In this document: one piece after another, positions 15,608-32,512 of the stretch
How the letters are laid out: each line of letters begins with the position of its first letter
Position numbering within the stretch: the stretch's first letter is position 1
From: Maricaulis salignorans
GTDB lineage: Bacteria; Pseudomonadota; Alphaproteobacteria; Caulobacterales; Maricaulaceae
Length of the DNA stretch: 64,000 bases
Reading direction: 5' to 3'
NCBI RefSeq assembly: GCF_900103475.1
Contig: NZ_FNHG01000001.1
Span: 186,001 to 250,000 of the forward strand
Notes under the pieces: model-generated
What the model saw: only the letters and a program-made list of their open reading frames with translations
The model's database searches: none
What the model was told of the DNA's origin: nothing
Translations under genes and position numbers: made by a program

Positions 15608-15639
15608 CCGTCACGGCACCGTCACACAGCCTCTATAGG
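15608..15639 (+). promoter_or_regulatory. Pho box and -10 element of the elpS-like gene
   Basis: Two copies of CCGTCAC (15608-15614 and 15619-15625) are separated by 4 bp, the 7-4-7 architecture with 11-bp period of PhoB sites (consensus CTGTCAT-N4-CTGTCAC; each half matches except T to C at position 2, plus one last-base variant). TATAGG follows 8 nt later (15634-15639), where a PhoB-dependent promoter has its -10. This predicts induction of the gene starting at 15706 under phosphate limitation. Confidence 0.65.
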
Positions 15640-15705: not shown

Positions 15706-18561
15706 ATGTCGAAGCAAGAATTCCGCAAATTTCTGCTGGCCAGTACCGCATGCGTCCTGCTGGCAGCCTGTTCGGATACATCGATCTCGTCGCCCGGCGG
15801 CAATAATGTCGGAACACCCCCCGGTGGTGGTGGCGGCGGTGGCGGCACCGGTAATGTGGTGATCGATCTCGTCCCGGCTGGAGGCTGCGGCACCGGCTCG
15901 ATCCGCGAGACAAGCGTTACGCACGGTACGACCACCATCAATGCCTGTGAGATCACCGGCAATATCACTTCGAATACGACGATCGCTGCCAATGCCGGTG
16001 TGATCGTCACCGGACCGGTTTTTGTCGGTCTCGATGATGGCGCCACGGCGCAAAAACCCAATGGCGAGGCCGCTGGCGGCACGCCGGTTACCCTGACCAT
16101 CAACCCGGGCGCGACTCTGTTTGGCGCTGCCGGCTCCGACTACATCGTCGTCACCCGCGGTTCCCGCATCGAAGCAGTCGGCACCGCCGACTCGCCGATC
16201 GTGATGACCTCCCGGTCCGACATTGAAGGCACGGTGGGCGCTAACGAAATTGGTCTTTGGGGCGGTCTGGTCATCAATGGCCGCGCACCGATCAATGCCT
16301 GTATCGACGGCACAGCTGTTGGCGGTTCTGCCGATTGTGTGAAGTCCGGTGAAGGCTCTTCCGGCCTGTTCGGCGGCGACAACCCGGCCGATGATTCCGG
16401 GACGCTGCGTTACCTCCAGGTTCGCTTCGCCGGCTTCAAGGTCAATAATGAAGACGAGCTCAATGGCATTGCTTTCCAGGGTGTCGGCAGCGGCACGGAA
16501 GTCGACTATGTCCAGGTCCACAATAATGCCGATGACGGCGTTGAGATGTTCGGCGGGGCCGTCGATCTGCGCCACCTGGTGCTGACCGGCAATTCCGACG
16601 ACTCGATGGACTACACCGATGGCTGGCGTGGCCGTGCACAATATGTGCTTGTGCGTCAGTCGGCCGATGGCGACCAGGGCTTCGAGTTCGACAACCGGTC
16701 GTCGAACAACACCTTGCTGCCACGCTCCAATCCTCGCATTTCCAACTTCACCCTTGTCGGTCAGCGCGGCGGCACGGGTTCCAACGACTCCGATCAAGGC
16801 ATGCTGATCCGGGCCGGGACCGCTGGCGAGCTGTATAACGGCATCGTGGTCGACTTCGGCGACAACTGCCTCGACATCGATGACACCGAGACCTTTAACC
16901 GGATCGGCGCTACCGGCGCTTCCGGTGATGAAGACCTGGTCATGCAATCGGTCGCGCTTGACTGCGTGGTCAACTTCTCGGAAACGGCCGGCGACCCGGT
17001 CGATGTTTCCGACTGGTTCCTCGGCCAGGCGAACAATGCCGAAATCGACAACACGATGTCGGACGTCTTCCCGGGCCCGATCGAACTGGCCGTGGCCACC
17101 ACCGACGTCAACGCGCTCGACCCATGGTTCGAACCGACCACCTATATCGGTGCCTTCTCCGGTTCCGAGAATGCGGCCTCGAACTGGGCCGCGGGCTGGA
17201 CCTACAATCTCTTCGCCGATCCGGGCTGTCCGACCGGCACCACCGAATCCGCTGAAGTCATCAACAATCAGCGTATCTGCCAGATCACCGGCAATGTGAC
17301 TGCCGATCTGCACCTGACGCGTGGCTCGGTCTATGAACTGGTCGGTCCGGTGTTCGTCGGTGTTGACCGAGGTCCCGATGCCGCCAGTCCTGCGCCCTCG
17401 GGCATCGAGGTCGAGCTGACGATTGACCCGGGTGTCACAGTGTTCGGTTCGGCAGGTTCCGACTATATCGTGATCGCCCGGGGCTCGAGCATTCGCTCCA
17501 ACGGTACCCGCACCGCGCCCGTCGTATTGACGGCCCGCTCGGATGTGGAAGGCACGGTTGGCGCCACCGAGATCGGTCTTTGGGGCGGTCTGGTCATCAA
17601 TGGCCGCGCACCGATCAACGCCTGTATCGACGGTACTGCAACGGGCGGTACGGCCGATTGTCAGAAATCCGGTGAAGGCTCTTCCGGCTTGTTCGGTGGT
17701 GCCGATCCGACGGATGACTCGGGCAATATCTTCTACACCCAAGTCCGCTATGCCGGCTTCAAGGTGAATAATGAGGACGAGCTCAACGGTATCGCCTTCC
17801 AGGCTGTCGGTAGCGGTACGGAAGTCGATTACGTCCAGGTTCACAATAATGCCGATGACGGTGTTGAGATGTTCGGCGGGGCCGTCGATTTGCGCCACCT
17901 GGTGCTGACCGGCAATTCCGACGACTCGATGGACTACACCGATGGCTGGGTCGGGCGCGCCCAATACGTGATCATCCAGCAGTCGGATGATGGCGATCAA
18001 GCTTTCGAGTTTGACAACCGATCGTCGAACAACACGCTTCTGCCACGGTCCAATCCCCGCATCTCGAACTTTACCCTGATCGGTCGCCGTAATGGTGCGG
18101 GCTCGAATGACTCCGATGAAGGCATGCTGATCCGTGCCGGCACCGCGGGCGAATTCTATAACGGTATCGTGGTCGATTTCGGCAATGCCTGCCTGAATGT
18201 CGACGACGCCGAGACCTTCGACCGTATCGGTGCCACCGGCGCCGCGGGTGATGAAGACCTCATCATCCAGTCGACCGTGCTCGATTGCCTGACCAACTTC
18301 AAGGAAACCGCCGGCGATCCAGTCGATCTGTCGACCTGGTTCCTGGGGCAGGCTGATAATGCCGAGATCACGAACTCGATGAGCGGTTTCACCTTCATCC
18401 CGGGTTCCACCGGTGTTGTTCCCGGTGCCACCGAGCTGGCGGTCAACACGACCGACGTCAATGCGCTCGATAGCTGGTTCGAACCCGTGACCTATATCGG
18501 TGCCGTCGAGGACAGCAACGACACTTGGTACCAGGGCTGGACTTTCCAGGTCACTCCGTAA
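15706..18561 (+). CDS. ElpS-like extracellular lipoprotein with internal tandem duplication
   Basis: A 951-residue lipoprotein. The signal peptide ends in LLAAC (Cys at residue 22) and is followed by Ser-Asp, then a Gly-rich linker (residues about 37-47). The rest is two copies of a module of about 440 residues (about 60-500 and 506-951). Each contains GPVFVG, a glycine/aspartate-rich beta-helix-like stretch, GLWGGLVINGRAPINACIDG, DDGVEMFGGAVDLRHL and RSSNNTLLPRSNPRISNFTL, identical or nearly so between copies. It precedes a TonB-dependent receptor and a gsp operon, the arrangement of Caulobacter elpS, whose product is a phosphate-starvation lipoprotein secreted by the type II system. AGGGGG lies before the ATG. 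Role in phosphate scavenging is inferred. Confidence 0.75.
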   Translation: MSKQEFRKFLLASTACVLLAACSDTSISSPGGNNVGTPPGGGGGGGGTGNVVIDLVPAGGCGTGSIRETSVTHGTTTINACEITGNITSNTTIAANAGVIVTGPVFVGLDDGATAQKPNGEAAGGTPVTLTINPGATLFGAAGSDYIVVTRGSRIEAVGTADSPIVMTSRSDIEGTVGANEIGLWGGLVINGRAPINACIDGTAVGGSADCVKSGEGSSGLFGGDNPADDSGTLRYLQVRFAGFKVNNEDELNGIAFQGVGSGTEVDYVQVHNNADDGVEMFGGAVDLRHLVLTGNSDDSMDYTDGWRGRAQYVLVRQSADGDQGFEFDNRSSNNTLLPRSNPRISNFTLVGQRGGTGSNDSDQGMLIRAGTAGELYNGIVVDFGDNCLDIDDTETFNRIGATGASGDEDLVMQSVALDCVVNFSETAGDPVDVSDWFLGQANNAEIDNTMSDVFPGPIELAVATTDVNALDPWFEPTTYIGAFSGSENAASNWAAGWTYNLFADPGCPTGTTESAEVINNQRICQITGNVTADLHLTRGSVYELVGPVFVGVDRGPDAASPAPSGIEVELTIDPGVTVFGSAGSDYIVIARGSSIRSNGTRTAPVVLTARSDVEGTVGATEIGLWGGLVINGRAPINACIDGTATGGTADCQKSGEGSSGLFGGADPTDDSGNIFYTQVRYAGFKVNNEDELNGIAFQAVGSGTEVDYVQVHNNADDGVEMFGGAVDLRHLVLTGNSDDSMDYTDGWVGRAQYVIIQQSDDGDQAFEFDNRSSNNTLLPRSNPRISNFTLIGRRNGAGSNDSDEGMLIRAGTAGEFYNGIVVDFGNACLNVDDAETFDRIGATGAAGDEDLIIQSTVLDCLTNFKETAGDPVDLSTWFLGQADNAEITNSMSGFTFIPGSTGVVPGATELAVNTTDVNALDSWFEPVTYIGAVEDSNDTWYQGWTFQVTP

Positions 18562-18600: not shown

Positions 18601-18631
18601 ACTGGTTCCGTTCAACCGAAGTCTCACGGTG

Positions 18632-21310
18632 ATGAAGATGAAAACGAATCGTATGGCATTCATGGCCGCACTCCTCGCGTCAACGACGCTGGTGCCGGCC
18701 GCTGCGTTCGCGCAGGATGCGGAAAGCCCCAGTGATGTTGAAGTCATCACGGTGCGCTATCAGTATATCCCCGAAGCTCGCCGCGTGACCTCCGAGGTTT
18801 CGGCGTCCCTTTCGATCGACGACCTGCTCACGACCGGCGATTCTGATCTCGCCGGCGCGCTTGTGCGTATCACCGGCCTGTCGACCACCCAGGGCCGGTT
18901 TGTCGTTGTTCGCGGTCTGAATGAGCGTTATTCCAACACGCTGCTCAATGGCTCGCCGATGCCATCGCCGGAACCGTTCCGGCGCGCTGCCCCGCTCGAT
19001 ATCTTCCCGACAAATATCCTGTCCAGTGTTCTGGTCCAGAAAACCTTCTCGCCGCGTTTCCCCGGTGAGTTCGGCGGTGGTGTCATCGGGATCGAGACCT
19101 CGGCCCTGCCGGAGGAAGGTTTCTTCACGGCCGGCGTCGATGGCAGTTTCAACACGATCACGACCGGAAATCACGGCCTCACCTATCACGGCTCAGACAC
19201 GGACTGGATGGGCTATGATGACGGTCTGCGTGACATCCCGGCCGAGCTGGCCTCGGTGTTCGAGACCACACGCGTTGGAAACAATCTACCGGCCGACCAG
19301 CAGCAGGCGATCGGCCGCTCGCTCGTCAATTCCGAGCTTTGGGTTATCCAGAATGTCGATACCGACGCCAATGGCGCGGTCTCGTTCAATGCCGGTGACC
19401 GTTATGATTTCCAGAATTTCTCGCTCGGCGTGATCGCGGCCTTCCAGTACAGCAATGCATGGGAGACCCGTGAGGGCCAGCGTGGCAAGGGTCGGATCGG
19501 CGCAGGCGATGAGCTGGTCTATGAAAACGGACCACCGCTCGCCGACCGTTCGGGCATCGCCCTTCCCGGCCGGGGGATCAATAATTTCCTCGGCACCGAA
19601 AACACGATCGATGTGTCCGGAATGGTGTCCGTTGGTGTCGATTTCTACACCAATCACTCGATCAATTTCCTGACCATGGCGCTGCGTTCGACCTCGAAAG
19701 AGGCGCGCATAGAGGAAGAGTTCAACGCGGGTGCCAATGGCGTTTTCCGCACCGACAGCACTGAATGGTTCGAGCGGCAGGTTCTGTTCAATCAGCTGAC
19801 CGGTGAACACTTGTTTGAAAGCCTCGGTGGCTTGTCTGTCGAATGGCGGGTGTCCGATGCGACTGCGACCCGTGACGCGCCCTATCAGCGCAATGCCGAA
19901 TACGCCCATACTGGGGCTGGCTATGTCTATGAAGGCACGGTCAACGGCAACTCGACCTCCTTCTCCGAGGTTGAAGACAACACCTCCGACTACGGGATCG
20001 ATCTCGAACTTCCCGTCGAGCTGGGATCGATGGACGTCTCGCTGACGGCCGGTTACGCCAATACCAGCCGCGAGCGTGATGCCTGGACGCGTCGCTTCTC
20101 CTTCGCACCGGGTTCGGTCGGCATCCCGTCCGAGCTTCTGAGCAGCCGTATCGACTATATTTTTGCGAACCAGAACATCACGGATGAACGCCTGCGTCTC
20201 ATCGAGACCGGTGGCCTGTCCCTGCCGGAAGCTTATCACGGCCAGCTTGACGTCGATGCCTATTATGTCGGCGCCGATCTTGAGTTGACCGACTTTGTCC
20301 GGGCTGCATTCGGGGCGCGTTTCGAAGACGGTGAGTTGAGTGTCGACACCTTCGCTTTCCCGGCCAGTGCGGCGGACAGCGGCCTGGTCGAAACCCAGCA
20401 GCAGGAAGACTATGTCCTGCCAGCACTGACGCTGACCTGGACCTTCGCTGACAATCTCCAGCTGCGCACCGGTTACTCCCAGACGATCGCCCGCCCGCAA
20501 TTCCGCGAGCTCGCCTTTGCCGAGTTCTTCAACACCGAAACCGATCAGCGTTTCCAGGGTAATCCCTATCTGGAAAACACCGAGATCACGAACTATGACG
20601 CCCGCCTCGAATACTATTTCGGCCGGGAACAATTCGTCACGGTTGGTGCCTTTTACAAGGAGCTGACCAATCCGATCGAGGAGTTCATCATCCCGATCGG
20701 TGATGGCCTCAATACCTCCTTCATCAACGCACCGAGCGCGACCCTGACAGGGGCCGAGTTCGAGTACGAGAAAACCTTCGATTTCTCGGATAGTTGGGAT
20801 CAGCCTTTCTTCAATGACCGCGAATGGTTCGTGAAGACCAACTACACCTACATCCAGTCGGAAGTGTCGGGTGAAGGTAGTGTCACTGTCGCCCAGGGTG
20901 CCTTCGGCAACCCGCAGGCGCTGGTGCTCAGCGCCGCCGGCTTCATTGAAGATGGCCGGGCCCTGCAGGGTCAGTCTGAGCATTTGTTCAACGTGCAGGT
21001 CGGCTTCGAAACCTTCGATGGCCGGGCGCGCGGTGCATTGCTCTACAATTACGTCAGTGACCGGACCCGGGCTGTGGCCAACCTGTCAGACAGTCTCCCC
21101 GAGATTGTCGAGCAGGTCCCGTCATCCCTCGACTTCGTCTACAGCCGCACGATCAATGTCGCGGAAGCAGACTGGGATGTGGGCTTCTCGGTTCGCAATA
21201 TTCTCGGTGATGGCTATAGCGCCACCCAGAATGCCGGCGGCACCGAACTGGCCGTCGATACCTATGATCTGGGTACCACGTTCAGCGTCTCGGTGAGCCG
21301 GACCTGGTAG
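18632..21310 (+). CDS. TonB-dependent outer-membrane receptor
   Basis: An 892-residue receptor with a signal peptide (MAALLAST...AAFAQ, cleaved near residue 27), a plug domain (ITGLSTTQGRFVVVRGLNERY and NGSPMPSPEPFRRAAPLDIFP, then GGGVIGIET), and a long beta-barrel ending in an aromatic C-terminus (SVSRTW). It energises uptake across the outer membrane through TonB. The ATG at 18632 is chosen because it starts the signal peptide; an ATG two codons on is possible. It follows the elpS-like gene, separated by the hairpin, and probably imports a compound released or captured with that lipoprotein (perhaps phosphorylated or metal-bound; inference). Confidence 0.9.
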   Translation: MKMKTNRMAFMAALLASTTLVPAAAFAQDAESPSDVEVITVRYQYIPEARRVTSEVSASLSIDDLLTTGDSDLAGALVRITGLSTTQGRFVVVRGLNERYSNTLLNGSPMPSPEPFRRAAPLDIFPTNILSSVLVQKTFSPRFPGEFGGGVIGIETSALPEEGFFTAGVDGSFNTITTGNHGLTYHGSDTDWMGYDDGLRDIPAELASVFETTRVGNNLPADQQQAIGRSLVNSELWVIQNVDTDANGAVSFNAGDRYDFQNFSLGVIAAFQYSNAWETREGQRGKGRIGAGDELVYENGPPLADRSGIALPGRGINNFLGTENTIDVSGMVSVGVDFYTNHSINFLTMALRSTSKEARIEEEFNAGANGVFRTDSTEWFERQVLFNQLTGEHLFESLGGLSVEWRVSDATATRDAPYQRNAEYAHTGAGYVYEGTVNGNSTSFSEVEDNTSDYGIDLELPVELGSMDVSLTAGYANTSRERDAWTRRFSFAPGSVGIPSELLSSRIDYIFANQNITDERLRLIETGGLSLPEAYHGQLDVDAYYVGADLELTDFVRAAFGARFEDGELSVDTFAFPASAADSGLVETQQQEDYVLPALTLTWTFADNLQLRTGYSQTIARPQFRELAFAEFFNTETDQRFQGNPYLENTEITNYDARLEYYFGREQFVTVGAFYKELTNPIEEFIIPIGDGLNTSFINAPSATLTGAEFEYEKTFDFSDSWDQPFFNDREWFVKTNYTYIQSEVSGEGSVTVAQGAFGNPQALVLSAAGFIEDGRALQGQSEHLFNVQVGFETFDGRARGALLYNYVSDRTRAVANLSDSLPEIVEQVPSSLDFVYSRTINVAEADWDVGFSVRNILGDGYSATQNAGGTELAVDTYDLGTTFSVSVSRTW

Positions 21311-21321
21311 CCCAAACGACC

Positions 21322-21345
21322 GGGGCGGGCCTCTGTGTCCGCCCC
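21322..21345 (+). terminator. GC-rich hairpin after the TonB receptor gene
   Basis: A 7-bp stem, GGGGCGG (21322-21328) with CCGCCCC (21339-21345), and a 10-nt loop, 11 bp past the stop codon. No T-run follows, so termination may be incomplete or Rho-assisted. It separates the receptor message from the separately promoted gsp operon. Confidence 0.45.
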
Positions 21346-21436
21346 GCACGTCGGCCCCCGGCCGGCCCTCTACCGGGCCATGGAACCCCGCCGGCTCGCC
21401 GCCTCCCATTCCCTCCCTTTGAGTCGGCTTTTCGCG

Positions 21437-21490
21437 GTGTTGCGAAACTGTCATGCGGGTGTCGCAGAACTGTCGGGAGTCACGTGTAAT
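21437..21490 (+). promoter_or_regulatory. Pho-box array and -10 element of the gsp operon
   Basis: Four 7-bp units repeat every 11 bp: GTGTTGC (21437-21443), CTGTCAT (21448-21454), GTGTCGC (21459-21465) and CTGTCGG (21470-21476), each separated by 4 bp. The second unit is an exact PhoB half-site. TGTAAT (21485-21490) follows 8 nt after the array, the same spacing as at the elpS-like promoter. This predicts PhoB-activated transcription of gspC onward, with a leader of roughly 70 nt. Confidence 0.7.
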
Positions 21491-21567
21491 CGAAAGGCCA
21501 ACAGGGGTCGGCATCGCGACCCTTTTCGCTGGTCCGTGACCCGGATCATGCTGTGGGCGAAGTCGGC

Positions 21568-22404
21568 ATGAGCAAGTTGGCACAATATCTGGTTACAGGA
21601 TCCGGTCGTCATCGGACGCTATCTGCTCTGGCGAGTGGCTTCGAGATTGTCCTCGTCGCCCTGCTCGGCCTTCTGCTGGCCCACATAATCTGGTTCATCG
21701 CCTTTGGCGCCAGTGCATCGAACATGTCGTTCGACGATGCTGTCCAGTCTGGCGGCCGCACCAGAGATGCAAGCTACGCCTCCGAAATCGGCGGCTTGCC
21801 GTCGGCGCAATTATTCGCCGATCGCACGGCCTCCCTGTCGAGCGCGGTCGAAATCGCCGCAATCCCGGAATCCCGCCTCAATCTGGTCGTGCGCGGCATC
21901 CGCACCGGGCAGACCGCTGCCGGCGGCGTCGCCTTCCTGCAAACGCCGGATGGCCGGGACGGATTATTCCGCCAGGGCGATGAAATCGTCGATGGCGTCA
22001 CACTGCATTCGCTCGACGAGGATCGCATCATCATTGACCGCCGTGGCGTGCTGGAAGCGCTCGTCTTGCGCGAAACCCGACATTCGGTCGCGGCGGCTGC
22101 CCCCGCTGCAGCCCCTGCGTCTGCCGGACGCACACGGGGACGGGCACCTGGGGACATCTTCCGCGTCGAACCGGTGTTCGAGGGGCGAGCGCTGATTGGC
22201 TATCGCATGGCGACCGAATCCGATGTCGTCCTCACCGCCCTCGGGCTGCGTCGCGACGACATCCTGCTCGCCGTTGACGGCCAGATTCTGGCCGAGGCGG
22301 GCGATGTGGCTGAGCTGTTCGAGAGCCTGCAGGGGCGCGAAACAATCTCTCTTTCAATCCGGCGCGGCGGTGTGCCGCTGACCCTCCAGGTGGATTTGTC
22401 CTGA
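21568..22404 (+). CDS. gspC: Type II secretion system protein GspC
   Basis: A 278-residue inner-membrane clamp protein linking the inner platform to the GspD secretin. It has one N-terminal membrane span (residues about 21-45: IVLVALLGLLLAHIIWFIAF), a periplasmic homology region (SRLNLVVRGIRTG ... GVAFLQTPDG), an Ala/Pro-rich linker, and a PDZ-like C-terminal domain (DVVLTALGLRRDDILLAVDG). The ATG at 21568 is preferred over an in-frame GTG at 21553. First gene of a 12-gene gsp operon behind a Pho-box array; its stop overlaps the gspD start by 1 bp. Confidence 0.88.
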   Translation: MSKLAQYLVTGSGRHRTLSALASGFEIVLVALLGLLLAHIIWFIAFGASASNMSFDDAVQSGGRTRDASYASEIGGLPSAQLFADRTASLSSAVEIAAIPESRLNLVVRGIRTGQTAAGGVAFLQTPDGRDGLFRQGDEIVDGVTLHSLDEDRIIIDRRGVLEALVLRETRHSVAAAAPAAAPASAGRTRGRAPGDIFRVEPVFEGRALIGYRMATESDVVLTALGLRRDDILLAVDGQILAEAGDVAELFESLQGRETISLSIRRGGVPLTLQVDLS

Positions 22405-24350
22405 TGCTTTCGATCTCAAAACGAGTCGCCGCCTTTATCGCGGTGATGGCTATCCTCATCTCGGGGGCCGATCAGGCCCAGGCCCAGGACAGTATCGTCA
22501 ATTTCAATCAGGCTGATATCCAGACCGTGATCGACGATGTCTCGGCGGTCACCGGTCACACTTTCATCGTCGACCCATCCGTGCGGGGGCGGGTCACTAT
22601 CACGTCGCAAAGCCCGCTGACCGCTGATGAGTATTTCCAGGTCTTCCTGTCGACGATGCGGGTGCATGGCTATGTTGTCGTGCCGACGGCCTCGGGCGCC
22701 TTCCAGATCGTGCCGGACCAGGCCGGTGCGCGTTCGGTCAGCCCGGTCAATGCGGAAATTCGCGGCGACCAATATGCCACCCAGGTAATCCATCTCCAGC
22801 ATGCCAGCGCCCAGGATGCGCTTGCCGTGTTGCGTCCGATTATTCACCCGCAGGGCAGCGTCAATGCTGCGCCGGGCAGAAACGCACTCGTCATTGTCGA
22901 CTTCGCCGAAAATATGCAGCGCATCCGGGAGGTTGTACGTGATCTCGATCGCGATACTGCCGTTTATGAAATGGTCGAGCTGGAGAATGCTTCGGCCTCG
23001 GAGATGAGTCTGATCATCCAGCGCTCGAACAGTTCGGGCGGCACGGGCGAGGGGCAAACCCGTAGCGGCGTCACCGTCGCGCCACTCTCATCGTCGAACA
23101 CATTACTGCTGCGCGGCACCGCAAATGCTGTGCGTGATATGGCCGCCTTGATCCGTCGCGTCGACGGGGCGAGCGTCTCCAACCAAGGCTTCCGCGTCGT
23201 TTATCTCAACAATGCCGACGGCGAAATGTTGCTGCCAATCCTTGAGGAAATGGTCGACGCAATGAGCGCAGGGGCGCCGGGCGACCGGCGGCCGACGGTC
23301 GCCCACCACGCGCCGACCAATGCGCTCGTCATCAATGCCAGCATCGATGTCCAGCGCGAGCTTGAGCGCGTTATCCGTCAGCTCGACGTGCGCCGCCCGC
23401 AAGTCCTTGTCGAGGGGATTATCGTCGAGATTTCTGACAGCGCGGCCCGCGAACTCGGGGTTCAGATGATGCTCGCCGGCGGCGATGACAGCAGTACGCC
23501 GCTGGCCCTTACACGTTACTCCGCGTCCAATCCCGATCTTCTCGCCCTTGCCGGCGCGGTTGCGGTGCCCGGTGACAGCGCCGATGCCACGATCGGTGAG
23601 CTCAGGGATGCGGCACTGGCCTCTCTGCTGGGCGTGCGTGGTGGCGCGTTTGGCCTGGGGGGACAATTGGGCAATGGCGGACTGTTTGGCCTGGTGCTCA
23701 ATGCCGTGGAGAATGACGTCGATTCCAACGTGCTCGCGACGCCGTCCATCCTGGCCATGGACAATGAGGAGGCGAGTTTCATCTCCGGTCAGGAAATCCC
23801 GATCACAACCGGTGAGGCCCTTGGCAACAACAATTCCAACCCCTTCCGCACCATTGAACGCGAGGAGGTCGGCGTTAAACTCCTGGTCCGGCCGCAGATC
23901 ACAGAGGGCGGAACGGTTCGGCTCTATATCGAACAGGAAGTCTCGAGTATCGCCGGAACCGTGGTGGGCGACTCCACCGATCTGGTGACAAACAAGCGCC
24001 GCGTGACAACCACTGTTCTCGCCGACAATGGCGAAATCATCGTGCTCGGCGGGCTCATACAGCAAGATGATGACGTGAATAATTCCCAGGTGCCTGTGCT
24101 CGGCAGCCTGCCCGGGATCGGCAATCTGTTCCGGTCGCGTTCGCGCTCCACGCACCGCACCAATCTCATGATCTTCATTCGTCCGACCATTATCAGAAGC
24201 GCGGCCGACATGCGGGCCGTGACCGATGGCCGGTATGATTACATCACGCGCGAGCAGCGTCTGTCCCACCCCGACGGTGCGAGCAGCCTGGAAGCCTTGA
24301 TGGGCATGATGGATGCGACCTCGACGCGCCTGCCGGAGGTTGGGGACTGA
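22404..24350 (+). CDS. gspD: Type II secretion system secretin GspD
   Basis: A 648-residue outer-membrane secretin with a signal peptide (residues 1-27), the N0 domain (IVNFNQADIQTVIDDVSAVTGH), N1-N3 repeats, and a C-terminal secretin core with VGVKLLVRPQITEGG and LGGLIQQDDDVNNSQVPVLG, then LPGIGNLFRSRSR. It forms the multimeric outer-membrane channel through which folded proteins exit. Length is typical. There is no pilotin-type S domain gene nearby unless the lipoprotein at the end of the operon serves that role. Confidence 0.95.
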   Translation: MLSISKRVAAFIAVMAILISGADQAQAQDSIVNFNQADIQTVIDDVSAVTGHTFIVDPSVRGRVTITSQSPLTADEYFQVFLSTMRVHGYVVVPTASGAFQIVPDQAGARSVSPVNAEIRGDQYATQVIHLQHASAQDALAVLRPIIHPQGSVNAAPGRNALVIVDFAENMQRIREVVRDLDRDTAVYEMVELENASASEMSLIIQRSNSSGGTGEGQTRSGVTVAPLSSSNTLLLRGTANAVRDMAALIRRVDGASVSNQGFRVVYLNNADGEMLLPILEEMVDAMSAGAPGDRRPTVAHHAPTNALVINASIDVQRELERVIRQLDVRRPQVLVEGIIVEISDSAARELGVQMMLAGGDDSSTPLALTRYSASNPDLLALAGAVAVPGDSADATIGELRDAALASLLGVRGGAFGLGGQLGNGGLFGLVLNAVENDVDSNVLATPSILAMDNEEASFISGQEIPITTGEALGNNNSNPFRTIEREEVGVKLLVRPQITEGGTVRLYIEQEVSSIAGTVVGDSTDLVTNKRRVTTTVLADNGEIIVLGGLIQQDDDVNNSQVPVLGSLPGIGNLFRSRSRSTHRTNLMIFIRPTIIRSAADMRAVTDGRYDYITREQRLSHPDGASSLEALMGMMDATSTRLPEVGD

Positions 24351-24352
24351 TC

Positions 24353-25861
24353 GTGGCCGACAGCCAGAGCTCCAACTCCCTGCCGCCGGTGCGTTACGCC
24401 TTTGCGCGCCAGGCGGGGATCGCCTTCATTCCCGGCGATGCGCCGCGATATGTGGTCAGGACGGGTGCGGACCGGCTGCGCTTGCTTGAGGTGCGCCGGG
24501 TGGTTGGAGGCAATTATCCCGTCAGCGAGCTGGGTACGGTCGAGTATGATCAGCTCCTGCGCGATATTTACGCCTATGCCGGGCTCGACGAGACCGAGCT
24601 TGAGGAAACCACACGGGGCGAGTCGCTCTCCGATCTGATTGACCAGATTCCCCAGTCGGAAGACCTGCTGGATGACTCTTCCAGCGCCCCGGTGATCCGC
24701 CTGATAAACGGACTAATCGCCGAGGCCGTGCGCATGCAGGCCTCCGATGTGCACGTCGAATCCTTCAGTGATCGCGTCGTCATCCGCTATCGTATCGACG
24801 GCGTGATGAAGGAGGCGGCCAGCGTTTCTGCGAAACTCTCGAAGCTCCTGGTGTCACGGATCAAGGTGATGGCGCGTCTGGATATCGCGGAAAAGCGGCT
24901 TCCCCAGGATGGCCGCCTGTCGCTTTCACTCGGCAGCAAGTCTGTTGATATTCGCGTCTCCACGCTGCCGTCGCGAAATGGGGAGCGGGTCGTTCTGCGG
25001 CTGCTCGACAATTCGGATGCGCGGTTCCGGCTCGATGATCTGGGCATGTCCGCAGAGGTGCTCGCCGCGTATGAGCGGGCGCTCGCGCAACCCAACGGCA
25101 TCGTCCTCGTGACGGGGCCGACCGGTGCAGGCAAGACCACGACGCTGTATTCAGGCCTCAACCAGCTCAATACGCTGGCGCGCAATATCCTTACGGTCGA
25201 GGACCCGATCGAATACGCCGTCGACGGGATCGGGCAGACCCAGGTCAACACCAAGATCGGGATGACTTTCGCCGGCGGTCTGCGCGCCATCCTGCGCCAG
25301 GATCCCGATATCGTGATGGTCGGCGAAATCCGGGATGCCGAGACGGCAGAAGTCGCCGTGCAGGCCAGCCTGACCGGGCATCTGGTGCTTTCGACCGTTC
25401 ATACAAACTCCGCCGTCGCAGCGATCGCGCGCCTGCGCGATATGGGGGCCGAATCCTATCTGCTCGCTTCGACCCTCACCGCGATCATCGCCCAGCGGCT
25501 GGTGCGCCGTCTTTGCCATGCCTGTCGCGAGCCCTATGCGCCAGATCGGGCCGAGCGGGCCATCCTCGGTCTCGACGAGGCGGAGGATGTGATGCTCTAC
25601 CGGCCCACGGGATGCTCGAACTGCAAGTCGCTGGGCTATGCGGGCCGCGTCGGGATTTACGAAATCGTCGAGGTCGACGAAGTCCTGCGCAAACTCATTC
25701 ATGAGGATGCACGCGAAAGCGAGATGGCAGCTCACGCCTTCGCGCACACTCAGACGCTGTTTGAGAATGGTGCGTGTCTGGCCTTGCGTGGCGAGACCAG
25801 CCTGGCCGAAGTGCTGCGCCTGTGCCGTGATGACGGGGGCGTACGTCATGCCAGCGTTTGA
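24353..25861 (+). CDS. gspE: Type II secretion system ATPase GspE
   Basis: A 502-residue secretion ATPase. It has the N-terminal linker and N2 domain (SDVHVESFSDRVVIRYRIDG), Walker A GPTGAGKTTT near residue 258, an Asp box (TVEDPIEY), Walker B VMVGEIRD, a His box (GHLVLSTVHTN), and a zinc-binding pair of CxxC motifs (CHAC, CSNC). It powers pseudopilus assembly from the cytoplasmic face. The start is a GTG at 24353, 2 bp after gspD. The 3' end overlaps gspF by 14 bp. Confidence 0.95.
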   Translation: MADSQSSNSLPPVRYAFARQAGIAFIPGDAPRYVVRTGADRLRLLEVRRVVGGNYPVSELGTVEYDQLLRDIYAYAGLDETELEETTRGESLSDLIDQIPQSEDLLDDSSSAPVIRLINGLIAEAVRMQASDVHVESFSDRVVIRYRIDGVMKEAASVSAKLSKLLVSRIKVMARLDIAEKRLPQDGRLSLSLGSKSVDIRVSTLPSRNGERVVLRLLDNSDARFRLDDLGMSAEVLAAYERALAQPNGIVLVTGPTGAGKTTTLYSGLNQLNTLARNILTVEDPIEYAVDGIGQTQVNTKIGMTFAGGLRAILRQDPDIVMVGEIRDAETAEVAVQASLTGHLVLSTVHTNSAVAAIARLRDMGAESYLLASTLTAIIAQRLVRRLCHACREPYAPDRAERAILGLDEAEDVMLYRPTGCSNCKSLGYAGRVGIYEIVEVDEVLRKLIHEDARESEMAAHAFAHTQTLFENGACLALRGETSLAEVLRLCRDDGGVRHASV

Positions 25862-27089
25862 ATATAGTGCGCTTGACGGCCGCGGGCACAAGAAGACCGG
25901 CCTGATCACGGCGGACTCGGAACTGGCCGCGCGGCGCGAATTGCGCCTGCAGCACCTGGCGCCGCTGGCCCTGCGCCAGGCCGATTCACGTCGTGGCGTG
26001 CAAGCGCCGGGCACTGCGGTTGGCCAATTGATCGAATACGTCTCGCGGCGCGATCTGGGAACGCGCGACCTGATGCTCATCACCCGCCAATTGGCGGCGC
26101 TGATCGAGGCCGGTATGCCGGTCGAGGAATCGCTGGACCTGGTTGGACGCCAGCTCGAAAAACATGCGATGCGGCGCATCATCATGGCAGTGCGCGCCCG
26201 CGTTACCGAGGGCAGTCGGCTGGCCGACGCGATGGCCGCTGCTCCTGGCAGTTTTCCGCCTGTCTATCGGGCCCTGATCGCTGCAGGCGAGGCCAGTGGC
26301 AGCCTCGGCATGGTGCTGTCGCGCCTGTCCGACCATCTCGAAACCGAAGATGCCGTCCGCAACAAGGTTGTCGGTGCGCTGGTCCATCCGGCGGTGCTTG
26401 CCGTGGTCGCGATCGGCGTCATCACCATGTTGATGCTTTTCGTCGTGCCCCGTCTCGCCGAACAATTCACCGGCATGGGGGTCAGTCTGCCGACTTTGAC
26501 CCGCAGCATGATCGCGATCTCCAGCTTCCTCGCGACATCCTGGCCCTGGATTGCCGCAGGTCTGGCCGGCAGTGCGATCGCCTTTATCCTGGCTTATCGT
26601 CAGCCCGGCTATCGCCGGATCCATGACGCGGTCGTCGTCCGGGTGCCCTTGATCGGCGCGTTTTTGCGCCAGGTCGAGGCGGCAGCCTTTGCCCGTACCA
26701 TGTCCATCCTCATCACCTCGGGCACGGTCTTGCCTGACGCCTTGAGGGCTGCAGGTCGGGCCGGTGCAAACCACGCATTTCGGGAGATGATCGCGGTCGT
26801 CGTCTCGGACGTGGAGAGCGGTCGCGGTCTGTCCGACGCCCTGACCCGCGGTGGCTGGATTCCGTCGCTGGTGATCTACATGGTCGCGGCGGGCGAACGC
26901 TCGGGCCGGCTCGACGAGATGTTCGGGCGTGCCGCCGACCAGCTCGGTCGGGATATCGACAGCTCGATCGCGGTCAGCCTGTCGTTATTGGAGCCGGGAA
27001 TTATCCTGGTTCTGGGGCTGATCGTCGTCCTGATCGTTCTTTCCATCCTGTTGCCGATCCTGCAACTCAACACGCTCGTCCTCGGTTAA
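25848..27089 (+). CDS. gspF: Type II secretion system inner-membrane platform protein GspF
   Basis: A 413-residue polytopic platform protein with the GspF duplication: a cytoplasmic domain at residues 60-180 (TRQLAALIEAGMPVEESLDLV) and a second copy at residues 260-390 (FARTMSILITSGTVLPDALRAA), plus three membrane spans, the last near the C-terminus. It begins MPAFEYSALDGRGHKKTG, the normal family start. The frame is open far upstream inside gspE, but the ATG at 25848 gives the conserved N-terminus and a 14-bp overlap. Confidence 0.94.
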   Translation: MPAFEYSALDGRGHKKTGLITADSELAARRELRLQHLAPLALRQADSRRGVQAPGTAVGQLIEYVSRRDLGTRDLMLITRQLAALIEAGMPVEESLDLVGRQLEKHAMRRIIMAVRARVTEGSRLADAMAAAPGSFPPVYRALIAAGEASGSLGMVLSRLSDHLETEDAVRNKVVGALVHPAVLAVVAIGVITMLMLFVVPRLAEQFTGMGVSLPTLTRSMIAISSFLATSWPWIAAGLAGSAIAFILAYRQPGYRRIHDAVVVRVPLIGAFLRQVEAAAFARTMSILITSGTVLPDALRAAGRAGANHAFREMIAVVVSDVESGRGLSDALTRGGWIPSLVIYMVAAGERSGRLDEMFGRAADQLGRDIDSSIAVSLSLLEPGIILVLGLIVVLIVLSILLPILQLNTLVLG

Positions 27090-27099
27090 GGAGGCCCTC

Positions 27100-27552
27100 A
27101 TGACCCCGTATGATGAAGACACTGATACGACCGGCAGCGAAGCCGGTTTCTCCCTGCTCGAGATCATGATTTCCATCTCGATCCTTGGTCTGCTGGCCAC
27201 GATTGTGGTGATCAATGTCATGCCAGCTCAGGATCAGGCGATGGTCCAGAAGGCCTCCGCCGATATCGCAGTGCTGGAGCAGGCGCTCGACGCATTCCGG
27301 CTCGACGCGCGCCGCTATCCGTCAGTGGAAGAGGGGCTTCAGGCTCTCGTTGAAGTGCCTGCGGGACCCGGCGCGGCCTATCGTGAACAGGGTTATATCC
27401 GTCGCCTCCCGGCCGACCCGTGGGGCCATGCCTATCAATATGTCTATCCCGGCCAATACGGCGTGTTTGACGTGTTTTCGCTCGGCCGCGATGGCCGCGA
27501 AGGCGGCGAGGGGCTCGATGCCGATATTGGCAACTGGGAGCGCGAATCATGA
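27100..27552 (+). CDS. gspG: Major pseudopilin GspG
   Basis: A 150-residue type IV-pilin-like protein. The prepilin peptidase site is SEAG/FSLLE, with cleavage after Gly16 and Glu at mature position 5, followed by the hydrophobic helix. The C-terminal part has the GspG pattern (RYPSVEEGLQALVEVP, RLPADPWGHAYQYVYPG, FDVFSLGRDG) including the calcium-site Asp residues. It forms the main shaft of the pseudopilus. The GGAGG just before the ATG is a good ribosome-binding site. Confidence 0.95.
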   Translation: MTPYDEDTDTTGSEAGFSLLEIMISISILGLLATIVVINVMPAQDQAMVQKASADIAVLEQALDAFRLDARRYPSVEEGLQALVEVPAGPGAAYREQGYIRRLPADPWGHAYQYVYPGQYGVFDVFSLGRDGREGGEGLDADIGNWERES

Positions 27553-28043
27553 GCATGAATGCCGAGAAGGAGTCAGGTTTTTCCTTGCTTGAAGTGCTGG
27601 TCGCGGTCTCGATCATGGCACTGATGGCGACCACGATCGCGCTCGCCGCCAGTCCCGAGCGCACACCGCTGCGCCGCGAAGCGGAGCGCCTGGTTGTGCG
27701 GCTTCACGATGCCGAGCAGGAAGCCGTGATCTCCGGTCAACCGGTTGGGCTGACGCTCACAGATGGTGGCTATGCCTTCACCAATTATGTCGACGGCGAG
27801 TGGCGACCGCTGCGCAACCACCCGACCCTGCAGCCGCGCGGCTTTGCCTCTGAGATGACACTGCGCAGCGATACCATCGCCCTGGCCTGGCACCCCGAGG
27901 GTGTGGCCGTGTATCCCGCGGCATTCTTCGACCCTGCCGGTTTCAACGATCCGTTCCGGCTCCTGTTGGAGGAGCGGGGTCAGACTTACGCGATCCTGCT
28001 CGACGATGCCGGACGCCTGCGTGTGGAAGCCGTCGCGGGATGA
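27549..28043 (+). CDS. gspH: Minor pseudopilin GspH
   Basis: A 164-residue minor pseudopilin with prepilin site KESG/FSLLE (Gly10, Glu at mature +5) and a GspH-type globular domain (LRREAERLVVRLHDAEQEAVISGQPVGL). The GspG stop overlaps its start by 4 bp. It is part of the pseudopilus tip-adjacent complex. No prepilin peptidase gene (gspO/pilD) is present in the operon or the window, so processing must rely on a peptidase encoded elsewhere. Confidence 0.9.
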   Translation: MSMNAEKESGFSLLEVLVAVSIMALMATTIALAASPERTPLRREAERLVVRLHDAEQEAVISGQPVGLTLTDGGYAFTNYVDGEWRPLRNHPTLQPRGFASEMTLRSDTIALAWHPEGVAVYPAAFFDPAGFNDPFRLLLEERGQTYAILLDDAGRLRVEAVAG

Positions 28044-28417
28044 AGCCTTGCAGCTCCCATAGCGAGGCCGGTTTCTCCCTGATCGAGGTCATGATGGCGC
28101 TGGTGGTCCTGGCGTTGGGCGGGATTGGTATGCTCAGTCTGATGCAGAGCTCGACCCGTAATGCGGCCGTCATCCAGGAGCGCGCCCTGGCGGTGATGGC
28201 TGCCGAAAATCTACTCAACCAGGCTCTGCTGGAACCTCGGCTGCGCGGCGGCGATGCGGGAACGTATGAGCTGGCCGGTGGCAGCTATGCCTGGCAGCTC
28301 CTGGTCGAGCCGACCACCGACCGCGATCTGCAGCGCCTGATCTTGCTCGTCAATGCGGGCGGCACGGGCAGCGAACTGGCCCGGCTCGAGACCTTTCGGC
28401 GCGGGAGCGGCGGATGA
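28040..28417 (+). CDS. gspI: Minor pseudopilin GspI
   Basis: A 125-residue minor pseudopilin with cleavage site SEAG/FSLIE (Gly11) and a long hydrophobic helix, MMALVVLALGGIGMLSLM. The soluble part is short and carries the GspI pattern GGSYAWQLLVEPTTDRDLQRLILLV. It nucleates the pseudopilus tip together with GspJ and GspK. It overlaps both neighbours by 4 bp (ATGA), typical of translational coupling in this operon. Confidence 0.92.
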   Translation: MKPCSSHSEAGFSLIEVMMALVVLALGGIGMLSLMQSSTRNAAVIQERALAVMAAENLLNQALLEPRLRGGDAGTYELAGGSYAWQLLVEPTTDRDLQRLILLVNAGGTGSELARLETFRRGSGG

Positions 28418-29076
28418 GCACTCCCACCAACCAGGCCGGCTTCTCTTTGCTCGAAATCCTGGTCGCGTCTTTTGTCTTTGCCCTGATGGCCAGCATGGCG
28501 GTGACCTTGCTTTCGGCCAGCGTGCAGGGTTCGGAACAGGTTGATGGCGCGCTCGACCGTGTGGGTTCGCTCGACCGGTTTCGGGTGATGCTGCGGGACG
28601 ATATGGGACAGCTGGCGCTACGGCCGGTGCGTGAAGCCGATGGGATGCGCGACCCGGTCGTGTTTGCTGCTGCAACCAATGGCGTCCCGGATCGTCACAA
28701 GGCGGTGCCGACCGATCTAGTCTTGCTCGTCTTTACGCGCGGAGGTGCCACCGATACGAGCGTGGGCCGGAGACGCAGCTCCCTGATACGTGTGGAATAC
28801 GTCCTGCGGGGCGACCGCATCGTGCGGCGGGTGCGAGGTCATCCTGATGCCGGTCTGACAAACGGGTTTCGCGAACAGATCCTGATCGAGGGTGTCAGCG
28901 AGGTCGGGCTCGAAGCTCTCGTCGGAGCGGCCTGGGTCGATACGATATGGGTGCCGGCTGGTCCTGCCAACCAGGCCGCCGAACTGCCGCGCGCTGTGCG
29001 TTTGCACTACAGCCTCGCCGGTCTGGGCCGGCTGGAGCACTTTGTCCTGACCTCGACTACGAGGGTTGTGGCGTGA
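28414..29076 (+). CDS. gspJ: Minor pseudopilin GspJ
   Basis: A 220-residue minor pseudopilin with site NQAG/FSLLE (Gly9) and helix ILVASFVFALMASMAV. The C-terminal domain has GspJ-like features (FRVMLRDDMGQLALRPV, LIRVEYVLRGDRIVRRV). It forms the tip complex with GspI and GspK. Its end overlaps the GTG start of gspK (GTGA). Confidence 0.92.
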   Translation: MSTPTNQAGFSLLEILVASFVFALMASMAVTLLSASVQGSEQVDGALDRVGSLDRFRVMLRDDMGQLALRPVREADGMRDPVVFAAATNGVPDRHKAVPTDLVLLVFTRGGATDTSVGRRRSSLIRVEYVLRGDRIVRRVRGHPDAGLTNGFREQILIEGVSEVGLEALVGAAWVDTIWVPAGPANQAAELPRAVRLHYSLAGLGRLEHFVLTSTTRVVA

Positions 29077-30062
29077 TCGGGCGCGCGGACAAGCAGGCTG
29101 GTGCGGCGTTGATCACGGCGATCCTATTGGTGGCGCTGATGTCGAGCCTGGCGCTGGCCATGACCTCCGGGATGCGTTTCTCGCTGCGCCAGGCCGCCAA
29201 TATGGAGGTGCGGGATCAGGCGCACTGGTATGTGCTCGGCGCGCGCGATTATGCCGAGGCCTTGCTGCTACGGGCCCTCGACGATCCCAGTCAGGCCTTC
29301 CGACCCGATGCCGGCTGGCTCAACACACCGCGCGTTTTCCCGATAGAGGGCGGCCAGATTACCGGCGAGATCCGTGATGCCCATAATTGCTTCAACCCCA
29401 ACGCGCTGGTGACCGCTGATGCCCAGGGCAGGCTTGCGATCAACGCTGATCAGCAACCCCAGTTCGAGCGCCTTCTGAGAGAGACCGGGATCCCAGCCGG
29501 GCAGGCAGTCCAGATTGCCGCGGCGACGGCTGATTGGCTCGATAGCGATCTGCGACCGGTCACGTCCGGCGCCGAGGACGATATCTATCTGCGCGACGGG
29601 CGCGCCTACCGCACCGGCAATACCTATCTGTCGGAAGCGGGGGAGTTGCGTGCGGTCGCCGGTGTCACGACCGACGCCTATTCGCGTGTGGCGCCGTTGA
29701 TCTGCGCCTTCCCCGGCGCTGTACCCCTGGCGCTCGATATCAATACATTGCGGCTCGATCAGGCCCCCTTGCTGATGGCAGCACTGAATGGCGCCCTTAC
29801 CCGGGCCGAGGCCGAGACCGTTCTGCTACAGCGGCCGGCGGCCGGCTATGCCGATATCGAGGCATTCTGGGCCACAGACATCATGCGCGCGCTCGAGCTC
29901 GATGCCGCAGAGCGGCCTGAATTGGGAGTGAGCTCGCGGTATTTCGAGATCGACATCACGGTGCAATACGCGGGCATTCGATACGCGTTGCGCGAGCAGA
30001 TCGAAGTGAGCGGCGGGCGGCAGATCACGCGTGTGACGCAGCGACATGGAATGTTCCAATGA
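29073..30062 (+). CDS. gspK: Minor pseudopilin GspK
   Basis: A 329-residue large minor pseudopilin that caps the pseudopilus. The N-terminus has QAG/AALITAILLVALMSSLAL (cleavage after Gly10); as usual for GspK there is no Glu at mature +5. Two SAM-like helical regions follow (LVTADAQGRLAINADQQPQF; AETVLLQRPAAGYADIEAFW). The GTG at 29073 is chosen because it overlaps the GspJ stop and starts the signal directly, although the frame is open upstream to 28947. Confidence 0.9.
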   Translation: MIGRADKQAGAALITAILLVALMSSLALAMTSGMRFSLRQAANMEVRDQAHWYVLGARDYAEALLLRALDDPSQAFRPDAGWLNTPRVFPIEGGQITGEIRDAHNCFNPNALVTADAQGRLAINADQQPQFERLLRETGIPAGQAVQIAAATADWLDSDLRPVTSGAEDDIYLRDGRAYRTGNTYLSEAGELRAVAGVTTDAYSRVAPLICAFPGAVPLALDINTLRLDQAPLLMAALNGALTRAEAETVLLQRPAAGYADIEAFWATDIMRALELDAAERPELGVSSRYFEIDITVQYAGIRYALREQIEVSGGRQITRVTQRHGMFQ

Positions 30063-31282
30063 GTCAGACCCTCGTCCTGTTCCCATCACCGCCGGATGGC
30101 CTGCAATGGTCAATCCTTGAAGGCGGCCACGAGGCCGTGGTGCAGGTCTCCTCCGGCGACAATTCGGCTTCGCTCGATACGGCGCTGCTGCAAGCAATCA
30201 GGTCCACCATTGTCATCCTTCCGTCCGACGATGTCTTTGTGAGCCAGGCCGTGTTGCCGACCCGGTCGGAGCATGATGCCCGGCAGGCCGCGCCATTCCT
30301 CATCGAGGAAGAGCTCGCCTCCCGGCTGGAGGAGGTCGATGTCGCCATCGGTGCTCCGGATGAGGATGGGCAGCGATGGGTGTTCGCCGCGGCCAAATCA
30401 GCGGTTGAGGCCTGGCGTGATACCTGCCGGCCCTACCTGCGCGGGAGTGTGTCGACGGTCCCCGATTGCCTGCTTATTGCCGAAGGCGACGCGGCGCTGA
30501 CCCTTCGCCACGAGCAGGGCCGGGTCATCTATTTCTACGGGGAGGCGTTGCGGCAGCCTGGCCGGGCGATTGGCGGTGCCTGCAGCGGGCGCATGTTCGA
30601 CTCCTTGCTTCACAGCCTGACAGCATCGGCGAGCGAGGGACGGCTCGCGGTCTCTCCAGCGCTTGGCCTCGCTGGGGAGAGCATACGGCCCCTGCGTGAC
30701 CGGCCGCTGGATCAGGCGGCTTGCGGCTTGTCGGAGGGGGTGTTGAAACGGATGCCGGCGCTGTTCGGTCAGAGGCTTGGCGCCGGTATAGACTGGTCGC
30801 GGACCCTTGGCCTGTTTGCACGCAGCGCTGCCCTCGCGGCCAGCCTTCTGCTTGGCCTGGGGCTCTTCATGATCGGCGAGAGTGTCTATCTGATGCAACG
30901 GGCCGACCGTTATGATGCGGCCAGCGTTGAGCTTGTACAGGCGGCTTTCCCTGCTATTTCCGGCTCGCTCGACCCAGTGCGTGCCCGCAGGATTCTCGAC
31001 GAGCGGCTTGCCGAGCGTCACGGGCGCGAGCGAAGCGGCGAATTCCTGCCACTGCTCGCTGCGCTGGCGAATCTGTCAGACGGGCATGATTCCGTCGTGA
31101 TCCAGGCGATCCGCTATGATCAGTCTCGTCAGGAACTCAGCGTCTCGGCCCGCTATGACGTTTTCTCCGATTTCGATGCGCTGAGTGAAGATGCGCAGGC
31201 GCGCAATATCGAGCTTGTCGATCAGGGCGCGCGCGATGGCCCCGCCGGGATAGACGGCGATTTCACGCTGAGGATCCCATGA
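30059..31282 (+). CDS. gspL: Type II secretion system assembly-platform protein GspL
   Basis: A 407-residue bitopic protein. The N-terminal cytoplasmic actin-like domain (residues 1-245; LPTRSEHDARQAAPFLIEEEL is the conserved GspL segment) recruits GspE. One membrane span lies near residues 256-280 (ALAASLLLGLGLFMIGESVYL), and the periplasmic ferredoxin-like domain follows. It overlaps gspK and gspM by 4 bp each. Confidence 0.9.
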   Translation: MSQTLVLFPSPPDGLQWSILEGGHEAVVQVSSGDNSASLDTALLQAIRSTIVILPSDDVFVSQAVLPTRSEHDARQAAPFLIEEELASRLEEVDVAIGAPDEDGQRWVFAAAKSAVEAWRDTCRPYLRGSVSTVPDCLLIAEGDAALTLRHEQGRVIYFYGEALRQPGRAIGGACSGRMFDSLLHSLTASASEGRLAVSPALGLAGESIRPLRDRPLDQAACGLSEGVLKRMPALFGQRLGAGIDWSRTLGLFARSAALAASLLLGLGLFMIGESVYLMQRADRYDAASVELVQAAFPAISGSLDPVRARRILDERLAERHGRERSGEFLPLLAALANLSDGHDSVVIQAIRYDQSRQELSVSARYDVFSDFDALSEDAQARNIELVDQGARDGPAGIDGDFTLRIP

Positions 31283-31776
31283 CCGCCCTTTTGTCGAGCA
31301 TTCCTGCGCTCTGGGCCGCCCGCACGGGCCGCGAGCAAGTGATGACCCTGGCCCTCGCCGGCCTCTTGCTGGCCTGGCTGGTCCAGACCCTTTTGGTCGG
31401 GCCGCTGCTTGATGTTCACGAGCGGGCCCGCCGCGAATACGCAGCGGCTGTCGAACAGCACCGCGAGATTCGGGAAGGCCTGGCCGATTATGCCGTCCTG
31501 CCAGCGGCAAATCCCGGCTCGAACGAGGCATCGCGGCCGCTGCGCACAATAGTTGGCGCGGCCGCGACTTCGCGGCGTATCGCCATTGCCGGCATTGTCC
31601 CGGGCGTCGACGGACGACTGAGCGTACATATCGACCGCGCTGACTACGGAGCCGCGATGGGTTGGCTGATCGAGATGGAGCGCCGCTATGGCATTGAGGT
31701 GATGTCGATCACCATGGCCCGGCTGGGCCGTGACCAGGTCGAACTCAATCTCGTTCTGACCAGGGCAGGGAATTAG
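31279..31776 (+). CDS. gspM: Type II secretion system assembly-platform protein GspM
   Basis: A 165-residue protein with a short cytoplasmic N-terminus, one membrane span (MTLALAGLLLAWLVQTLLV, residues about 22-40), and a coiled-coil plus ferredoxin-like periplasmic domain. This is the standard GspM layout. It dimerises with GspL in the inner membrane. Sequence conservation in this family is low, so operon position is part of the evidence. Confidence 0.87.
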   Translation: MTALLSSIPALWAARTGREQVMTLALAGLLLAWLVQTLLVGPLLDVHERARREYAAAVEQHREIREGLADYAVLPAANPGSNEASRPLRTIVGAAATSRRIAIAGIVPGVDGRLSVHIDRADYGAAMGWLIEMERRYGIEVMSITMARLGRDQVELNLVLTRAGN

Positions 31777-31780
31777 GCAA

Positions 31781-32512
31781 ATGCTGCGATTATTGGCTGT
31801 TTTCATCATCGCATTGCTGATCGGGCTGATTGCCACGCTGCCGCTGAAGCTGGTGCTCGGACTGACCACCAATGGGGTCGATCTGAGCCGGGCCGAGATA
31901 CATGGCTCGATCTGGAATGGCACGATCCGGGGCGCGCGCCTCGGTCAGGTCTCCATGCGCCGGGCGCAAATTCACACCCGGCCGTGGACCCTGCCAGGTG
32001 GCCGGCCCGCAATCGACTGGGTGCTGGCCGATGCCGGGTTGCGCGGCAGTGGGCTTGCGCGGGTCGATCTGCACGGTAACTGGCAAGTGCTCGATGCCCA
32101 GCTCGTCGGCGTACCGGTTCGAATGGGCCTGCAGGAGATCCCCGGCCTCACGGAAGCGGCGGTCATCACGGTCAGCCTCGACCGGCTGGATTTCACCGGT
32201 GGCCATTGTGCCGCCGCCAGTGGCGTGATGACTGCGGCTTTCTCGGCCGATCTGTCGCAGGAATTCGGCCTTGCTGTACCCGAATTGAACGGCGCTCTGG
32301 AGTGCCGCGGCGGCGAGCTCGTGGCCGCACTATCCGGGGAGACTGCGGATATGACGGTCGCGGCAGACATGATTTTTGGCTCGGCTGCTGTCGCGTGGAC
32401 GATCGACATCGCAACGACGAATGCCGATCTGGGCAATGCGCTGTCCTATTCAGGCTTCCAGCTCTCGGATGGGATCTGGCGGCAAAACGGGGAGATGGGT
32501 CATGCGGATTAA
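31781..32512 (+). CDS. gspN: Type II secretion system protein GspN
   Basis: A 243-residue protein with an N-terminal membrane anchor (LLAVFIIALLIGLIATLPL) and a periplasmic domain typical of GspN (LSRAEIHGSIWNGTIRGARLG). GspN occurs in only some type II systems and its role is poorly defined. It begins 4 bp after gspM. The downstream lipoprotein gene overlaps its end by 11 bp. Confidence 0.85.
   Translation: MLRLLAVFIIALLIGLIATLPLKLVLGLTTNGVDLSRAEIHGSIWNGTIRGARLGQVSMRRAQIHTRPWTLPGGRPAIDWVLADAGLRGSGLARVDLHGNWQVLDAQLVGVPVRMGLQEIPGLTEAAVITVSLDRLDFTGGHCAAASGVMTAAFSADLSQEFGLAVPELNGALECRGGELVAALSGETADMTVAADMIFGSAAVAWTIDIATTNADLGNALSYSGFQLSDGIWRQNGEMGHAD

Follow-up and report, generated by a model that had tools for sequence, protein, structure and literature searches.

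The 64,000-nucleotide stretch of Maricaulis salignorans DNA analysed here (contig C36:186001-250000 of a 3.1 Mb genome in 37 contigs; hereafter the window) carries a type II secretion operon with the genes for GspC to GspN in order, preceded by genes for an elpS-like lipoprotein and a TonB-dependent receptor (Table 1). GspC, GspE, GspF and GspJ score below their NCBIfam cut-offs, yet each is top-ranked for its own part, and GspM and GspN are recognized from Pfam only. Among the 17 named loci found with the window GspD, the eight nearest are Maricaulis assemblies, at 65-69% identity. A first-pass annotation of this DNA had placed an array of tandem binding sites for the phosphate regulator PhoB (Pho boxes) upstream of the entire gsp operon, and that placement holds: the array precedes a complete gspC-gspN operon that runs on the + strand from 21568.

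Table 1. Features at and around the gsp promoter (window coordinates).
Feature	Position	Strand	Evidence
Four-unit Pho-box array, 11-bp period	21437..21476	+	direct reading, genus matrix, genus alignment
Putative -10 TGTAAT	21485..21490	+	8 nt past last unit; exact hexamer uncertain, alternative starts at 10 nt
gspC, first operon gene	21568..22404	+	Pfam T2SSC 4.6e-20; NCBIfam TIGR01713 2.8e-17, under model cut-off
gspD, E, F, G, H, I, J, K, L, M, N in order	22404..32512	+	NCBIfam D-L; Pfam T2SSM 7.2e-26, T2SSN 4.7e-18
G+C-rich hairpin just past TonB-receptor stop codon	21321..21346	+	fold of 21308-21436, -57.3 kcal/mol, z -2.45
elpS-like lipoprotein gene	15706..18561	+	position and neighbours as Caulobacter cc0170; label from gene order
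TonB-dependent receptor gene	18629..21310	+	Pfam TonB_dep_Rec 1e-24, Plug 1.8e-7; position as Caulobacter cc0171
Two-unit Pho box CCGTCAC ggca CCGTCAC	15608..15625	+	12.0 bits, third site in window

The array is real. Its four 7-bp units, GTGTTGC (21437), CTGTCAT (21448), GTGTCGC (21459) and CTGTCGG (21470), are separated by 4-bp spacers (gaaa, gcgg, agaa) and thus recur at exactly 11 bp, as the annotation had read them. A Pho box is described as direct repeats of 11-bp units with seven conserved and four less conserved bases, with CTGTCAT as the Escherichia coli motif, bound by PhoB as a head-to-tail tandem (PMC4415409). The array follows this layout of seven conserved and four variable bases in 11-bp direct repeats, includes a CTGTCAT unit and has four units where the classical E. 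coli box has two; sites with multiple PHO boxes have been described, for instance at E. coli ugp (PMC4415409). When periods of 7-18 bp were scored across the window, the top four-unit score (25.2) belonged to period 11 at 21437, and the best four-unit score for any other period was 18.1. Base composition predicts about 0.00004 occurrences of the core TGTY-N7-TGTC-N7-TGTC-N7-TGTC per window and 0.002 per genome. A four-unit pattern modelled on the site matches one place in the genome, this array, against none for the reversed-pattern control, and the three-unit TGTC-N7-TGTC-N7-TGTC without mismatch likewise occurs genome-wide only here; with up to one mismatch, the three-unit core is found at six genome places, two of them inside the array, compared with nine in the reversed control.

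The E. coli consensus CTGTCAY-N4-CTGTCAY, at up to two mismatches, matched 58 genome places versus 19 in a reversed control and was too loose for use, so a matrix was trained on promoters of the genus itself. The training set comprised 31 Pho boxes (14 of pstC, 12 of pstS type and five of the phoX family) and not a single gsp site; the boxes of pstS type lie upstream of pstS or of the gene preceding it, which is a porin by Pfam in genome G065 and was assigned by eye in the others. This matrix gave the array 20.9 bits, the highest score in the window, and the ranking was kept when the two boxes from its own genome were removed (29 boxes; 20.2 bits, with the next site at 16.0) and when only pstS-class boxes were used (22.4 bits). 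None of 300 column-permuted matrices reached the observed score in the 80-nt region. The array resembles, in sequence, the operators that this genus has at pst and at further phosphate genes, and the box upstream of the pstS region in the same genome (CTGTCATgcagGCGTCGCaaaaGCGTCAT) is a close match to it (CTGTCATgcggGTGTCGCagaaCTGTCGG). A sequence model, R1, built from 26 of the 31 training boxes with no gsp site among them, also gave the array its best score within the window (E 0.034, against 0.64 for the next site). R1 was run over 19 genomes of the genus, and at E<=10 it recovered four places in the present one: the pst operon (5e-5), the pstS region (0.003), the array (1.5) and another place (6.1). 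Long arrays are not peculiar to gsp, since 14 of 18 genus genomes examined have a three-unit box at the promoter of pstC.

Conservation of the element was traced across the genus, in which 17 genomes have a GspC match. An aligned element lies upstream of gspC in 14 of the 17, and a two-unit matrix likewise identifies it in 14 of the 17 intergenic regions (shuffle p <=0.012). It ranges from four units (e.g. G065 and G078) down to a two-unit core, ACGTCGT-aaaa-CTGACGT, and the intergenic alignment of the window array with the genus element shows no gap within the array. In the 14-genome alignment, the most conserved 18 columns are those of units 3-4 (0.93 vs a mean of 0.47). A search of 19 genomes for the core ACGTCGTNAAACTGACG, allowing up to one mismatch, located it at gsp in 13 of them and at some other place in two (G072 and G073); the window genome's own array is too diverged for this pattern and so is not counted by it. 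A reading of the relatives' core as an inverted repeat (ACGTC...GACGT) was dropped by eye, since the version in the window keeps the 11-bp direct repeats without that inverted repeat. These data also bear on whether the array could be a functionless TGTC-rich stretch that arose by chance. The abundance of loose two-unit words and the E of 1.5 in the genome-wide model search would suit such an origin, but a four-unit core expected 0.002 times per genome and found once, a period of 11 that stands out, and conservation at 14 of 17 promoters make it very unlikely, and we give it almost no weight.

The reading that we consider probable is that the array is a true Pho box of several units and serves as operator for a PhoB-dependent promoter, from which gspC-N would be transcribed at low phosphate. 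The Pho-box reading is well supported, and the earlier proposal of tandem PhoB sites gains from the genus matrix, from the similar box that this genome has before its pstS region and from conservation in 14 of 17 genomes. We infer that PhoB binds here, that it activates and does not repress, where transcription starts, and that phosphate starvation induces the operon; phosphate hunger probably switches on the gsp export machine, much as reported for Caulobacter.

Several observations weigh against this interpretation. Many PhoB sites of E. coli, mostly intragenic, are inert (PMC10294691). The training boxes were initially chosen with a hand matrix built on the E. coli consensus. A pstC-only matrix ranks the array first at just 11.1 bits, barely over unrelated sites, and a phoX-only matrix fails to find it in a scan of the window. 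The genome-wide E of 1.5 is not significant alone, the genome's two better hits being training sites, and the R1 genome search scored 150 of 373 first-look candidates; a gsp match at E<=10 was returned in five of the 17 genomes with GspC (this one, G063, G065, G068 and G078). Three of those 17 (G070, G071 and G072) are without the array. The units of 13 relatives have the form CGTCGT or CGTCGC and CTGACG instead of TGTC, a drift that also separates them from the classical Pho box, and 11 of these 13 fall below 13 bits with the three-unit matrix.

The divergent units raise the question of whether another response regulator of the OmpR/PhoB family, reading 11-bp direct repeats, binds the array, its match to the Pho box being a family resemblance. 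Such a regulator would account for units in 13 genus members that differ from the pst boxes, for a core, ACGTCGTNAAACTGACG, that occurs almost nowhere but at gsp when up to one mismatch is allowed, and for the failure of phoX-only training to detect the array. The window array, on the other hand, has TGTC units and is close to its own genome's box upstream of the pstS region, CGTCGT units occur in phoX boxes too, and phosphate and phosphonate genes follow gsp in G065; we therefore regard a different family member as improbable, and PhoB as the better candidate.

The putative -10, TGTAAT, begins at 21485, 8 nt past the last unit, just where the first-pass annotation had it, and at this same distance the 13 relatives that carry the element show TGTATC (11 genomes) or TATATC (two). 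No sigma-70 promoter-like site was found on the + strand between 20400 and 22600. The geometry of box and -10 that goes with activation is familiar from PhoB promoters in general. With the box 8-10 nt upstream of the putative -10 and no match to a -35, PhoB would act here as an activator recruiting RNA polymerase. In the proposed mechanism, PhoR would phosphorylate PhoB, PhoB molecules would bind the 11-bp units head to tail, and the bound protein would replace the missing -35 and recruit RNA polymerase to the -10 located 8-10 nt downstream, with transcription predicted to start near 21497. The two PhoB dimers suggested in the first-pass annotation are a reading of the unit count: four units could hold that many.

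Upstream of the array, the hairpin past the TonB-receptor stop codon lacks a T run in the window and has one in several relatives. A G+C-rich inverted repeat occurs at the same place in the 17 genus intergenic regions, as judged by eye, with only the window's folded. The hairpin likely separates the elpS-tonB unit from gsp and, together with the similar repeats in the genus, suggests that gsp probably has its own promoter. PhoB could nevertheless bind the array and matter little, if gsp relied mainly on a different promoter, constitutive or not, or on transcription reading through from elpS-tonB, with weak or no tuning by the array. That three genus members do without the array, and that the window hairpin has no T run, would agree with so small an effect. 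Across 14 genomes, however, no part of the intergenic region is better conserved than the array, a G+C-rich hairpin stands between tonB and gsp, and the type II system is among the listed members of the Caulobacter PhoB regulon (PMC11208175). We judge a negligible role unlikely, though it deserves more weight than a different regulator, and favour the array as an effective PhoB operator.

The genome encodes the regulators that such an operator would require. A row of genes on contig C27 comprises a histidine kinase in the phoR position, pstC, a second permease, pstB (identified from reading of the open reading frame only), phoU and phoB, and the PhoB equivalog match reaches 356 bits against a cut-off of 296; both PhoB and PhoR are thus encoded. 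Of the 16 other genomes of the genus that have GspC, 12 show a pstS-like match 15-17 kb downstream of gspC and on the gspC strand; the present genome's pstS-like gene is on another contig than gsp. In G065, the region after gsp (L263:13604-19029) contains an opposite-strand gene, phnC, a phnD-phnE fusion, a Porin_O_P phosphate-selective porin and a pstS-like gene. The three genomes without the gsp array, G070, G071 and G072, have their pstS-like gene just upstream of pstC and not downstream of gsp.

Caulobacter and the organism of the window both belong to the order Caulobacterales. In Caulobacter crescentus elpS (cc0170) and a TonB-receptor gene (cc0171) lie next to gsp, as an elpS-like gene and a TonB-receptor gene do here, and there is a link to phosphate (PMC2996285, PMC11208175). 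The first-pass annotation had invoked this parallel. It is stronger than the annotation implied, a 2024 study placing the Caulobacter type II system in the PhoB regulon (PMC11208175), although a 2010 study gives an increase of only 1.7-fold for gspE and gspL mRNA in poor medium, with GspL protein at similar levels in the two media (PMC2996285). Type II secretion that depends on PhoB is already known in Caulobacter, and this genus would add another case; the evidence here takes the form of an operator conserved across the genus, not of expression measurements. A Caulobacter gsp site may already be in print. A further parallel is found in Pseudomonas aeruginosa, where proteins of the type II systems Hxc and Xcp build up when phosphate is limiting (PMC9769906). 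The likeness lies in type II secretion being tied to phosphate shortage; the export of its own phosphatases LapA and LapB distinguishes Hxc from the gsp system here (PMC9769906). Literature searches on the Pho box with type II secretion systems, or on Maricaulis type II secretion and phosphate, found no paper, and a search on Maricaulis and the Pho regulon turned up one metagenome paper. The array is a candidate site for control of type II secretion by phosphate in cis, and these searches found none published for this group.

To gauge how far the element extends beyond the genus, regions upstream of gspC were scored across the family, in which 97 genomes have a GspC match (17 in the genus and 80 others). 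The main run covered 67 of the 80; five regions were scored separately (L108, L130, L131, L133 and L138, of which L130 is a second place in an already counted genome), and the family count leaves out nine genomes (G007, G014, G016, G017, G021, G043, G053, G055 and G057). With 250-bp regions, 12 of the 67 reached at least 13 bits upstream on the coding strand, five of the 12 coming from genus g8, compared with none of 67 on the opposite strand and none of 67 inside gspC on either strand; with 500-bp regions, the count was 13 of 67. One of the five extra regions reached 13 bits (L131), versus none of the five on the opposite strand. Wide generality of the operator is disfavoured by the low yield in the rest of the family, where only 13 of 72 regions reach at least 13 bits, and by families f2 and f5 of the order, in each of which none of 20 genomes does; these 40 genomes are the top-ranked GspC matches of their families and not a random draw. 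At 10 bits, one f5 region scored, plus one f5 region on the wrong strand. Family f2 is possibly that of Caulobacter, and with no f2 site of at least 13 bits in 20 genomes, the operator is seemingly not shared with Caulobacter in this form. Some f2 members do have a weakly Pho-box-like element of their own, CGTYGC-ggac-CTGTTGG, about 30-47 bp before the predicted gspC start (L328, L329, L330 and L346).

The elpS-like gene, 5.7 kb upstream of gsp, has a Pho box of its own, which starts 98 bp upstream of the gene and is followed 8 nt past its end by TATAGG, the same spacing as between the array and TGTAAT. A counterpart scoring 13.6-22.7 bits is present in all 12 relatives' loci that reach this position (four further loci begin inside elpS), and its start precedes residue 3 or 4 of the ElpS match by 115-120 bp; G070 and G071, two of the genomes without the gsp array, keep this box. 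The export machine and the lipoprotein, its presumed partner in phosphate scavenging, would then be induced together, each from a separate Pho box.

The array links the secretion machine with phosphate, phosphonate and ElpS-like genes, an association that points to phosphorus scavenging as a main function of the type II system in these bacteria. A more speculative extension, which we put forward tentatively as a possibility well short of even chances, is that gsp is a core direct PhoB target in the genus, within a phosphorus-acquisition island (elpS, tonB, gsp, phnCDE, porin and pstS). The gsp operator would have kept its phased half-sites while drifting to CGTCGT/CTGACG, giving a threshold unlike that of pst, so that secretion would come on at another stage of starvation than uptake.

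The elpS-like lipoprotein is an internal tandem duplication, with halves 71% identical over 439 aligned positions, and full-length double forms are present in relatives too. Its distant relatives (<60% identity) are encoded on 21 plasmid records, among others 12 from Pseudoalteromonas. A second Pho-box-like site at 15092-15120 (15.8 bits) lies about 600 bp upstream of elpS and, by eye, about 40 bp from an apparent minus-strand gene start; it was not assigned to elpS, because the box conserved in relatives is much closer, with only 115-120 bp between its start and residue 3 or 4 of the ElpS match.
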